Assembly: GCF_001941485.1 (NCBI RefSeq)
Contig: NZ_CP009247.1
Location: 806,001-870,000, forward strand
Length of the DNA: 64,000 nucleotides
Source of the DNA: Corynebacterium frankenforstense DSM 45800
GTDB lineage: Bacteria > Actinomycetota > Actinomycetes > Mycobacteriales > Mycobacteriaceae
Reading direction: 5' to 3'
Below are positions 6,554-38,963 of this stretch, in pieces (position 1 is the stretch's first letter; each line of letters begins with the position of its first letter). A model generated the notes under the pieces. The model saw only the letters and a program-made list of their open reading frames with translations. It was not told the DNA's origin and did no database searches. Made by a program: the position numbers and the translations under genes.

Positions 6554-6911
6554 GGTTGGGTTCTTTCTCCTAGCCGCCCACGTCCGCTCCACGGCTGCGC
6601 CACACCGGCCGGAGGCATCGAGAGGCGGCTCGATGCGGGGTCGGGGCGCTGCCGTCGCCAGCGTACGGGGCGTAGACGATTATTTTCGACAACAGCAAGG
6701 GGACAGCATACACGGGCCCCGCCGCGGGACATAATCCCCGGTCGCGCGGCCGTTTAAGGCCCTGCCCGGGGCGATTTCGCCCACGGCGCCCCCACGTGTA
6801 CAGTGTCAGAGGTTCATCGAAGCCCAACTCAGGCACGATCCGTCCGGGCCGCCGCAGCGCGGTCCCGACCGGCGGAGACGACCTGAAGTTTCAACCCTGA
6901 GGGAATCGTAT
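6554..6911. promoter_or_regulatory. divergent promoter region between the rpmB operon and rpmE2-rpmF
   Basis: About 360 bp with no gene. On the minus strand TATGCT (6705-6710) is a good -10 box for the rpmB operon. On the plus strand TACAGT (6799-6804) is a possible -10 box for rpmE2, which would give a leader of about 100 nt. An AT-rich partly palindromic element lies at 6674-6688 (separate entry). The leaders are long enough for ribosomal-protein or metal control, but I see no recognisable riboswitch. Confidence 0.5.
6674..6688. promoter_or_regulatory. possible Zur-box-like operator
   Basis: AGACGATTATTTTCG matches the mycobacterial Zur pattern TGAAAATNATTTTCA at 11 of 14 defined positions. 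One half-site is good and the other poor. It lies 16-30 nt downstream of the minus-strand -10 box at 6705-6710, where a repressor would block the rpmB operon. The logic fits, because cysteine-free ribosomal proteins are often under Zur, but the match is imperfect. Confidence 0.3.
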
Positions 6912-36250: not shown

Positions 36251-36384
36251 CCTAGCTGCCGTAAATGTGCTGTACACAGGGGCCCTTTACCCCTCCTTTC
36301 CCACCGCTTGCCGACGTCCCGTCGGTCGCCGTCGGCGACCGACCCCGCGGTTGGGCGGTGCTCTTCGTCTGCGGGGCACCGGGT

Positions 36385-36470
36385 CAGAACGAAACCTGTG
36401 CCGCCGGCCAGGTGTCCCAGAACGGGACCGGTGCCGCCGGCCAGGTGCCCCAGAACGGCACCGATGGTCC
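36385..36470 (-). repeat. 33-bp tandem repeat beyond the HNH gene stop codon
   Basis: CAGAAC occurs at 36385, 36418 and 36451, exactly 33 bp apart. The first two units share GTGCCGCCGGCCAGGTG; the third is truncated. The 3' end of the HNH gene itself (TCAGAAGGGCACCGG at 36485) resembles the unit, as if the end of the gene had been duplicated. Confidence 0.8.
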
Positions 36471-36484
36471 ATGACCGGACCGGC

Positions 36485-38002
36485 TCAGAAGGGCACCGGG
36501 GCTGCCGGGTCGTAACCGATCTTCTCGTTATGCACAGCCCGCCTCGCCTCACCACGAGCACGCGCCCGCTCCTCAGCCTGTTGGCGGTGCTCCGAGACCG
36601 TCATCGCCAACCGCGCACCACCCGGCGTCAGAGGACCATCCGGGACACTGACCTGGAAGATGTTGCCCGGCAACAACCACACCGTCATCCCCGTGACCGG
36701 ATCATGGAGGTATTTGACCTGCCCGTCGGTCTTCAGGTTGTGCCAGTGCTGCGACACCCGAGAGGCATTATCAAGTGCCGTGGCCCCGCCCTCCTCATGT
36801 GGGATGCGGTGCTCGAACTGCGTGGCAGGTGTCTTCGTCGTCGACGACGGACCGGAACAGCAGTCGTGCACACCCGTCACCCAGGCGACCAGACCCATCG
36901 TCGGATCATGGGCCTGGGTTTCCTCCTGCCTTCCTTCAGTGGCGTCTTTGACGACGGTGACCATCTCCTCCCACCGGGCCTGCGCGGCAGGCGACAACCA
37001 GCCGGCACCGGGCAGCCACATCGGCGCGTCAGTCAGATCCGCTGCCTTATAGACCCACTTGGTGACCGTGACGGTGGTGTTGTCGGTCAACGTGTCGTAG
37101 AACGCCTCAGTCAGACTCGTCTTATCGGAGATCGATTTCGTCTGCAGCACACTGTTGAGGATGCTGGCCTGGTCATCGGGCAGGGTGATGCGGTACTCGG
37201 TCAGCCCGGGAATCGAGTCGTCGGTTTCGAAGATGCCGGGCACCGGGGCGGGTTTGCCGCCGTCGTCGAAGTCGCGGGGCAGGCGGATCTTAGGGTCGTA
37301 GAGGTTGACCAGTTCGTTGATCTTGTCACTGATCTTCGAGGTGGTGGGAAGTGCCTGCCGGGGTGCTGTCGGGGTGAGGAAGTCGGTGATGCCCTCATCG
37401 ATGCGGGCGAGTATCTCGGGGTCTTTCACGGCCATGACCGCGGCCCCGATGGTGCGAAGGGATCCGACCTCGATGTGGAACAGCATCTCCTGCAGCGCCT
37501 TCAGGCGGGGCAGTTTGTCTGTGTAGGCACCCAGCGAGGTCACGTAGGAGTCTTTGATGGTGTAGCGGCTGACTGCGGTGGAGGCGGCCATGCGTGTCGA
37601 GTAGGCGGTGATGGTCTCATTCGCGCGGGGTTGGTTGTCCATCCAGATCTCGTAGTCGAGACGACGCTTCAGCCGGCTTTTCACCGCCACCGGGTCGGTC
37701 TGGTCGGTATTGGAGAAGTAGTTGGGTGGGTTGGTGCCGTCTTGTGGTGGGATGTGTCCTGCGGGGGTCTGGTTTTTCCGCCACCGGTTGGCCCGCATGA
37801 GGAGTAGTTGTTCTTCGCGTTTGTCGCGGGCGGCTTGGCGGGTGCGCAGTCTGGTCTTGATTTTCTTGGCGGCGATGCGTTGGCGTCGGGTGGTCTCCTG
37901 CCCGGCCATCGTGTGTCCGGCCCGTCGGAGGCCGAGTCGTTTTCTGATGTGGGTGTTCGATCTTTTGTGGTGGCCTTTGCGTTGTCCTAGGTGGTGTCGC
38001 AT
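36485..38002 (-). CDS. 13E12/DUF222-type HNH endonuclease
   Basis: A 505-aa protein. The N-terminal about 75 residues are strongly basic (RKRLGLRR, RRQRIAAKKIKTRLRTRQAARDKR). A helical central domain (YTDKLPRLKALQEMLFHIEVGSLRTIGAAVMAV) follows. The C-terminal HNH motif reads FEHRIPHEEGGATALDNASRVSQHWHN, with DCC before it. This is the repeated corynebacterial/mycobacterial 13E12-like family, linked in mycobacteria to repetitive elements carrying phage attachment sites. AGAAAGGACC precedes ATG 38002; a second start at 37909 is possible. Codon use is less GC-biased, especially at the 5' end. Its target is unknown. Confidence 0.88.
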   Translation of the reverse strand: MRHHLGQRKGHHKRSNTHIRKRLGLRRAGHTMAGQETTRRQRIAAKKIKTRLRTRQAARDKREEQLLLMRANRWRKNQTPAGHIPPQDGTNPPNYFSNTDQTDPVAVKSRLKRRLDYEIWMDNQPRANETITAYSTRMAASTAVSRYTIKDSYVTSLGAYTDKLPRLKALQEMLFHIEVGSLRTIGAAVMAVKDPEILARIDEGITDFLTPTAPRQALPTTSKISDKINELVNLYDPKIRLPRDFDDGGKPAPVPGIFETDDSIPGLTEYRITLPDDQASILNSVLQTKSISDKTSLTEAFYDTLTDNTTVTVTKWVYKAADLTDAPMWLPGAGWLSPAAQARWEEMVTVVKDATEGRQEETQAHDPTMGLVAWVTGVHDCCSGPSSTTKTPATQFEHRIPHEEGGATALDNASRVSQHWHNLKTDGQVKYLHDPVTGMTVWLLPGNIFQVSVPDGPLTPGGARLAMTVSEHRQQAEERARARGEARRAVHNEKIGYDPAAPVPF

Positions 38003-38167
38003 GGTCCTTTCTACCCCCTTGGTTATGTGGTGTGTGCTGGTGTTTTGTTGTGTCTTGTGTGTTCGGGTTTCAGTGTAGTGGAGGGGCGTGACAGGGTTCG
38101 CTGATGTGTTCGACCATGGGCTGTGGTTTTCAGGTGAGACGCCGCCTGACTGCTGTGGGTGGTGGTT

Positions 38168-38963
38168 GCAGTAAGTAACTGCACTGCCGCCCCGAAGCCG
38201 ACATCGGCGGGACTGGATGGGTGTTGCAGTAGGTCACTGCGTCGGAGGGGGTGCGGACCGGGAAAGGGGGCTCGCAGTGGATCACTGCGCGGTGAACCCG
38301 GTGCGACGAAGTCCTGGCGCTAGGTGGCATCGCAGTAGGTCACTGCATCGGTGCCGAGGGGCGGAGCGGCAACGGGGACTGAGTGGGGCTTGCAGTGAGT
38401 CACTGCAACAGGGGCGAAGGTTGGTGGAAGCCCAGGGGCGCGATCCCGGGGAGTCGATCCCCCGCCGGCGGTGGACTCCGGAGGGCGCTGCAGTGGATCA
38501 CTGCGTCGGGACGCGGAGGTGGCGGTTCCCGTGGTGCCGTCGGTGCCGGCTTGGGTTTTGCAGTGGATCACTGCACGGCTACTCGGTGGACTCTGATGGC
38601 AGGCGCTTGCAGTAGATCACTGCGCGGGCCACGGGAGTCAACGAAGTCCTGACGCTTGGTGGCTTTGCAGTGGGTCACTGCACTGCGGCATGGGAAACGG
38701 CGGAGCGGCGGAGGCGCTGTCCCCGGCAGCAGAGCACTGTGCCCGCAGCAGACTCCGGAAGGGGAGGGGGCTTGCAGTGGAATACTGCATCGCTGGTCGC
38801 GGTGGAGTCTCATGGTGAGAGTCGCAGTAGATCACTGCGGTCGGGTCTGGCGGCGGGGAAGGCCTCTGCAGTGGATCACTGTGCGTCAGCCGGAGCAGGG
38901 GAGGAGTGCAAGGGGCGCAGGGGGTGCAGGGGAGTGTGGAAGAGGGACGCAGTACATCACTGC
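38168..38963. repeat. array of 13 short palindromes GCAGTGRRTCACTGC
   Basis: Copies start at 38168, 38226, 38274, 38332, 38392, 38490, 38560, 38609, 38667, 38774, 38824, 38868 and 38949, each 15 bp. GCAGT and ACTGC arms are kept in all but the 12th, whose last base is T. With G at position 6 the arms are 6 bp around a 3-bp centre (GCAGTG-GAT-CACTGC). Start-to-start spacing is 44-107 bp, often 48-60. The base before is T or C. Spacers are G/A-rich and partly related: ACGAAGTCCTG..CGCT.GGTGGC occurs before copies 4 and 9. Confidence 0.95.
38898..38932 (+). other. potential G-quadruplex
   Basis: Four G runs of 4-5 (38898-38901, 38912-38915, 38920-38924, 38929-38932) are separated by 10, 4 and 4 nt on the plus strand. 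They lie between palindromes 12 and 13. Confidence 0.5.

Follow-up and report, generated by a model that had tools for sequence, protein, structure and literature searches.

The 64,000-nucleotide stretch of the Corynebacterium frankenforstense DSM 45800 chromosome analysed here (the window) carries an array of short palindromes directly 5' of a gene for a diverged HNH-family protein. This chromosomal unit, composed of palindrome array, conserved leader and HNH protein gene, is present four times in the genome. Linkage, copy number, conservation of the motif over its spacers, purifying selection on the protein, and recurrence of the association with a second palindrome in congeners were all observed. 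The reading that we tentatively prefer, and regard as close to evenly balanced, is that the palindromes are cognate DNA sites of the adjacent HNH-family protein. The protein would bind the site, and this binding would control either expression or spread.

The palindrome array and the four-copy unit

The array spans positions 38168-38963 of the window and comprises thirteen palindromes and one degenerate copy, with the consensus Y-GCAGT-RRRTC-ACTGC-R. The thirteen lie where the first-pass annotation had placed them: eleven are exact copies of GCAGTNNNNCACTGC on either strand and two, those beginning at 38168 and 38868, have one mismatch. Given on the forward strand, they occupy 38168-38182 (site 1, with one mismatch, closest to the HNH gene), 38226-38240 (site 2), 38274-38288 (site 3), 38332-38346 (site 4), 38392-38406 (site 5), 38490-38504 (site 6), 38560-38574 (site 7), 38609-38623 (site 8), 38667-38681 (site 9), 38774-38788 (site 10, an exact copy on the reverse strand only), 38824-38838 (site 11), 38868-38882 (site 12, one mismatch) and 38949-38963 (site 13, the distal end of the array). 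The degenerate site, absent from the earlier count, lies at 38726-38740 on the same strand and has two mismatches to GCAGTNNNNCACTGC. Consecutive sites of the 13-site array are 44-107 bp apart, as previously described.

Between positions 37501 and 39500 there are 16 exact strand matches, whereas 500 first-order Markov shuffles gave 0.002 on average and never more than 1. Over the whole window, 50 matches with up to two mismatches were counted versus 25 expected, so the motif excess corresponds to the 38168-38963 cluster. The genome (2.60 Mb, a single contig) has 30 exact places of the motif, of which the window array accounts for 11, the arrays of loci L015, L016 and L018 for 8, 4 and 6, respectively, and a solo site for one. 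The earlier concern that the motif might be common at background frequency thus falls away, as 29 of the 30 exact places are within the four arrays. With mismatched sites included, the arrays hold 14, 10, 8 and 10 sites, 42 in total. The solo exact site (L017:4304-4318; C1:1694303) was discounted, because it may be due to chance: a neighbouring gene has its stop codon within this site, and single matches to a tighter form of the consensus occur in 9 of the 241 other congeners.

The tighter consensus GCAGTRRRTCACTGC has 17 forward and 9 reverse matches in this genome; in the 241 other congeners it was found at most once, with single matches in nine. The array therefore appears, by exact matches and among the genomes searched, private to the lineage. 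Likewise, no orthologous array was found in the congener genomes searched, a set with one genome per species. A single match, L078, was discarded, as by eye it lies inside an apparent coding gene.

Across the 42 sites, which share the consensus given above, mean pairwise identity is 0.84 for the 15-mer and 0.32-0.38 for the 15-base blocks on either side. The motif has thus been kept in four arrays while the spacers decayed, which argues for selection on the sites. A purine occupies positions 6, 7 and 8 in 42, 41 and 41 of the 42 sites, respectively. Outside the arms, a pyrimidine precedes 38 of the 42 and a purine follows all 42, with weak preferences further out. Both 5-bp arms are intact in 31 of the 42 sites. 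Of 210 arm pairs, 13 depart from pairing and none of these 13 is altered on both sides, as expected for a DNA site and not for an RNA stem. Spacing over the four arrays is 44-126 bp; a distance of 58 bp recurs (10 of 37), and no common helical phase was found.

The array had been called orientation-free, which proved incorrect: the centre RRRTC is asymmetric, and a single polarity fits 39 of the 42 sites. As for the exceptions, two fit both directions equally and one, in L018, fits better as the inverse. The purine bias attributed to the spacers is real but modest (59% in the window array, 52-55% in the other three). Partial homology between spacers, also noticed earlier, is illustrated by an 81-nt block repeated with 79% identity, and such repeated spacer blocks support the proposal that the array grew by duplication of larger blocks. 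The array does look non-coding, as had been assumed: the 37 spacings of the four arrays fall modulo 3 into classes of 13, 14 and 10, and each array has at least one stop codon in every frame. Nothing seen pointed to a decayed gene in relatives, among which no orthologous array turned up for comparison.

Every array is situated directly 5' of a gene for a 505-aa paralog, 154-168 nt before its start codon. In the window this gene occupies 36485-38002 on the reverse strand. The window protein shares 94, 91 and 90% identity with the three other 505-aa proteins, and the DNA of the other three units is 87-89% identical to that of the window unit across 1.8-2.0 kb. The leader between array and gene (38003-38167, reverse strand) can be aligned in all four copies and presumably contains the promoter. 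It includes a conserved block, GTCACRCCCCTCC (38080-38092, reverse strand), which in the four copies is separated from the first palindrome by 65-79 bp, as well as a possible -10 hexamer, TACACT (38072-38077), and a possible ribosome-binding site, AGAAAGGA (38005-38012), ahead of the ATG, both predicted from the sequence of the reverse strand. A sigma-70 scan of the leader did not find a promoter, and its placement there is hence inferred from conservation. If this placement is right, the array lies upstream of the transcript. A LexA/SOS box has the consensus TCGAAC-N4-GTTCGA and lies near a promoter; LexA control of the leader was considered and rejected, as the half site TCGAACA stands alone there and a genome-wide search for the full dyad, allowing up to one mismatch, gave no match.

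Close to its 3' end, the unit has a perfect 23-bp dyad (36321-36343) with 10-bp arms and a 3-bp loop, whose 23 bases are identical at L016 and differ by one base at L015; it is possibly a terminator or the end of the unit. A 33-bp tandem repeat in 2.4 copies (36385-36463) is located 3' of the HNH gene. A shorter version is present at L016 and, by eye, none at L015 and L018. Again by eye, the units of this repeat are similar to the last part of the coding sequence and include short dyads as well.

In all four loci, the next gene past the array lies upstream of the HNH gene and shares its strand. At L015 the last palindrome provides the stop codon of an AlkZ-like glycosylase gene. Overlap of a palindrome with the stop codon of a neighbour (CAG TGA within GCAGTGA) was seen twice, at this array end (L015:4486-4500) and at the solo site (L017:4304-4318). 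The window unit is flanked by a DUF981 gene, found at E <= 1e-40 in 9 of 242 genomes including its own, and a glycine-transporter gene. Eight relatives have the DUF981 gene with no glycine-transporter gene within 1.5 kb on each side or, in G008, within 13.5 kb. For the L016 copy, the dapF-like neighbour (identified by eye) was found in 3 of 8 genomes, one match being weak, and no ATPase gene lies within 1.5 kb of the two good ones. None of 8 genomes gave a match to the AlkZ-like neighbour of L015. Elsewhere in the window, an Rfam L31-Corynebacteriaceae ribosomal-protein leader is located at 6827-6904.

The HNH-family protein and its relatives

For the 505-aa window protein, searches of Pfam up to E 10 and of NCBIfam up to E 1 gave no matching model. 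Its family membership comes from relatives: among 25 aligned members, Pfam HNH was found in 16, DUF222 in one, a zinc finger in one, and no other Pfam family; DUF222 (PF02720) thus matches 1 of the 25 and not the window protein. In the alignment (A1), H398, H421 and K424 are invariant and N412 is present in at least 90% of the members. The HNH triad (H398, N412, H421) is therefore kept, and the motif sits at the C-terminus. Three cysteine columns, which we take to be the zinc-site cysteines of the HNH fold, read C-S-S in the five proteins of this genome and C-C-C in all 29 other aligned relatives. PDB profile matches with E < 0.01 were to McrA and Cas8f-HNH chains, at their HNH ends, and the weaker ones were mixed. 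PADLOC analysis of the A1 members gave a type IV restriction model for 3 of 25, a type II model for 1 of 25, and none for the window protein.

The protein also bears a basic N-terminal extension, with 26 K+R versus 4 D+E in the first 85 residues. Among the matches listed from other genomes, most start past about residue 60. When the four copies are compared, dN/dS amounts to 0.15-0.17 for the whole protein, 0.27-0.73 for its N-terminal part and 0.00-0.15 for the HNH region. The HNH genes are thus maintained, with purifying selection on the protein.

At E <= 0.001, with up to ten candidates scored per genome, HNH relatives were found in 122 of 151 genomes of the genus, including its own, and 106 of them have at least two matches. 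At E <= 1e-45, the genome itself is the sole one with a match among 150 genomes of the order. No relatives were found in plasmids (searched with protein and DNA), phages (DNA) or viral contigs (protein alignment and pattern), and a scan of genome contigs gave one weak stretch.

A fifth paralog in the same genome has about 47% identity (tblastn, 500 columns) and a single weak site upstream. The GTCACRCCCCTCC block also occurs ahead of this gene, 134 bp from the weak site. We rejected the idea that this site stands at an equivalent spacing, since 134 bp to the leader block compares with 65-79 bp in the four units and the start codon is uncertain. In place of an array, the upstream region holds a perfect dyad, GTAAAGCACTTTAC (L077:5117-5130), and a repeat with a 21-bp period (L077:5229-5280).

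A second palindrome beside HNH genes in ten congeners

The flanks of HNH genes in other genomes were scanned for exact dyads repeated at least three times within 400 bp. Such dyads were present at 4 of 6 HNH loci of one congener, G080, and at none of 86 distinct loci elsewhere; the same scan of 44 further loci, without an HNH check, gave none. The G080 palindrome, CGTCG-N7-CGACG, is unrelated to the window motif and lies 3' of the gene. It is spaced by 48-76 bp within four of its clusters and is present at all six G080 HNH genes. The six proteins have 44-97% mutual identity, some pairs only 44-54%, and by eye the C-x4-C and LC cysteines are kept. As the site accompanies proteins this divergent, the tie predates recent duplications.

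The consensus CGTCGTYTSANNCGACG has 9-18 strand matches in 10 of 242 congeners; five more congeners have single matches, and the window genome has none. The ten are to be read as a group, not a clade. Among the 87 places listed for them, 34 lie 3' of an HNH match at a distance of up to 350 bp, versus 0.075 expected, and 2 are on the 5' side. The 3' linkage remains when the discovery genome G080 is left out (24 of 71 places listed).

The gene-centred view is similar. Among 28 HNH loci, the best HNH matches in the ten-congener group, the palindrome occurs within 300 bp past the stop codon at 22 (19 of 25 without the three G080 loci), and on the 5' side at 2. Fifteen of the 22 loci carry two to four copies, and in 21 of the 22 the first copy is 3-31 bp past the stop. 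At the HNH loci of other congeners the palindrome was found in 0 of 81, on either side. Nor did the HNH copies of four congeners, G008 (6), G160 (3), G060 (3) and G045 (4), share convincing palindromes, although one 17-bp dyad occurs at 2 of the 4 copies of G045.

Several observations on this palindrome count against a cognate site. Six of the 28 checked loci lack it, and 25 of the 57 HNH matches in the ten genomes, fragments included, have a site among those listed. Moreover, 51 of the 87 places listed are more than 350 bp from any detected HNH match, some of them inside apparent coding genes. These in-gene palindromes include copies at orthologous places within the ten-genome group (L131, L130 and L132; L180, L188, L183, L194, L191 and L192). 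At L131, L180 and L188 much of the sequence around the palindrome is less conserved than the palindrome itself; between L132 and L191 and L192 its position is shifted. At least one in-gene palindrome may be conserved simply because the protein is.

Possible function of the palindromes and relation to known systems

The first-pass annotation had offered a multi-site operator, a partition or anchoring site, a recombination hotspot and a target of the adjacent HNH nuclease as possible roles of the array. Nothing observed pointed to partition or anchoring. The link to the HNH gene is now strongly supported, by four arrays that each lie 5' of a paralog and by the second palindrome in ten congeners; cleavage as its nature has become less likely. 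Two lineages with two unrelated palindromes at one gene family are most simply explained if the gene product recognises the palindrome, in which case each lineage would keep its own site beside the gene. According to the reading that we prefer, gene, leader and array would be inherited as one unit, now at four chromosomal places. Within the unit, sites would multiply by duplication of site-plus-spacer blocks, after which the spacers would decay. The HNH protein, or a partner, would gather at the array and set its own expression; as the leader that follows the array probably contains the promoter, the likeliest use would be a multi-site control region. An equivalent, unrelated palindrome is found in the ten congeners just past the stop codon of many HNH genes, in one to four or five copies.

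Against recognition by the HNH protein stand the opposite placement of the two palindromes (5' of the gene in the window, 3' in the congeners) and their unrelated sequences, the fifth paralog with its single weak site, and the HNH loci of other congeners, which have neither kind (second palindrome 0/81, any three-copy dyad 0/86). Moreover, the linkage could result from joint inheritance alone.

An unlikely explanation, which still deserves some weight, is that the array is an operator for a separate, unlinked host regulator that silences or activates the multi-copy HNH genes. The array is positioned just upstream of the conserved leader block, two-sided arm changes are lacking, and a 17-bp dyad is of typical size for a dimeric regulator. 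However, thirteen copies across 0.8 kb far exceed the usual operator, and one would expect sites of a host regulator at other places too, whereas 29 of the 30 exact places are in the arrays and none of the 241 congeners has more than one match.

It is rather unlikely, though likewise worth some weight, that the palindromes are selfish, REP-like mini-elements, copied perhaps by the HNH protein and devoid of a regulatory role. Growth of the arrays by block duplication would fit such elements, as would the dispersal of CGTCG-N7-CGACG in the ten congeners, where 5-16 places are listed per genome, some of them within genes. The window genome, however, shows no dispersal, with one possible solo site only, and in four arrays the motif has been retained while the spacers decayed, which implies that the sites are under selection.

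That the palindromes are targets of cleavage or nicking by the HNH nuclease, with the unit homing by break repair, seems improbable to us. The HNH triad is kept and the unit is present four times in one genome, but 42 sites have survived alongside intact genes, and no hint of their protection was seen, which makes a cleavage target less likely. In addition, two of the three cysteines kept in all 29 aligned relatives have been lost here, and the flanking gene pairs were not seen adjacent in the relatives examined, so there is no empty site to show. Similarly improbable is an array transcribed into RNA hairpins or a small-RNA precursor: although folding energies of -4.8 to -6.0 kcal/mol were obtained for four site forms as isolated DNA, the 10 wobble-type arm changes, which keep G-U in 8 cases for forward-strand and 2 for reverse-strand RNA, are too few to argue for RNA, none of the 13 departing pairs is two-sided, the array is upstream of the inferred promoter, and it has no Rfam match.

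Among known systems, REP/RAYT is the nearest in logic to the HNH gene and its palindromes, but the window unit fails its defining features. In the accessible parts of two papers (PMC2817692, PMC3733652), REP/RAYT is a gene family tied to its own short, lineage-specific palindromes, which form local clusters. A tie between gene and palindrome, lineage specificity and clustering are common to both, together with dispersed copies in the ten-congener group. On the other hand, the adjacent gene is HNH-like and does not encode a Y1 (HUH) tyrosine transposase, and no GTAG or CGTC tag is found outside the stem in the 42 sites of the window genome. High-copy dispersal is absent there, the second palindrome being partly dispersed (51 of 87 places listed). 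Inverted palindromes on both sides of the gene are also lacking, as the window palindrome is 5' only and the second mainly 3'. The accessible text of a REP survey (PMC12306157) mentions neither HNH nor Corynebacterium.

The REP13E12/DUF222 HNH family of actinobacteria consists of multi-copy HNH-containing genes of unknown function, and we know of no assigned function for genes of this type. In mycobacteria, REP13E12/HNH endonuclease/DUF222 genes appear as a repetitive category in the accessible part of one study (PMC10589994). The HNH genes of the window genome resemble them in being multi-copy and in having the HNH motif at the C-terminus. They differ in that matches to Pfam DUF222 and HNH are found in relatives of the window protein and not in the protein itself, and in that the presumed zinc-site cysteines of this genome's proteins are C-S-S and not C-C-C. 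We noticed no report in the open-access literature of palindrome arrays linked to REP13E12/DUF222 HNH genes, which is not proof of novelty, and the palindrome site, in five spellings, did not occur in the open-access literature searched.

A wider proposal, possible but more doubtful than not, is that diverged DUF222/13E12-like HNH proteins form a new gene-palindrome class, in which each lineage has its own cognate site on either side of the gene, with local multiplication and sometimes dispersal. This class would be an independent HNH counterpart of REP/RAYT and would explain the multiplication of these genes in actinobacterial genomes. HNH genes tied to private palindromes, twice and with unrelated sequences, provide a defined DNA ligand for testing. 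Should the protein bind the palindrome, a family of unknown function would gain a biochemical handle, and REP-like pairing of gene and palindrome would no longer be confined to Y1 transposases.

In multi-site operators and control boxes, dyad sites are found upstream of the promoter of the controlled gene. The dyads described here are likewise upstream of the presumed promoter of a gene that they possibly control, but they amount to 8-14 sites over 0.5-0.8 kb at four loci and occur almost nowhere else in the genome. CRISPR arrays have a constant repeat of about 23-47 bp and near-constant spacing. The short palindromic repeats with diverged spacers between them are reminiscent of such arrays; the units, however, are 15-17 bp long, the spacing varies from 44 to 126 bp, and the spacers are partly homologous. 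The initial judgement that the array is not CRISPR also agrees with PADLOC analysis, in which no cas gene was detected among ten neighbouring window proteins. The only matches for these ten were QatD on a TatD-like protein and mad2 on a KsgA-like protein, both of which were taken as cross-matches.
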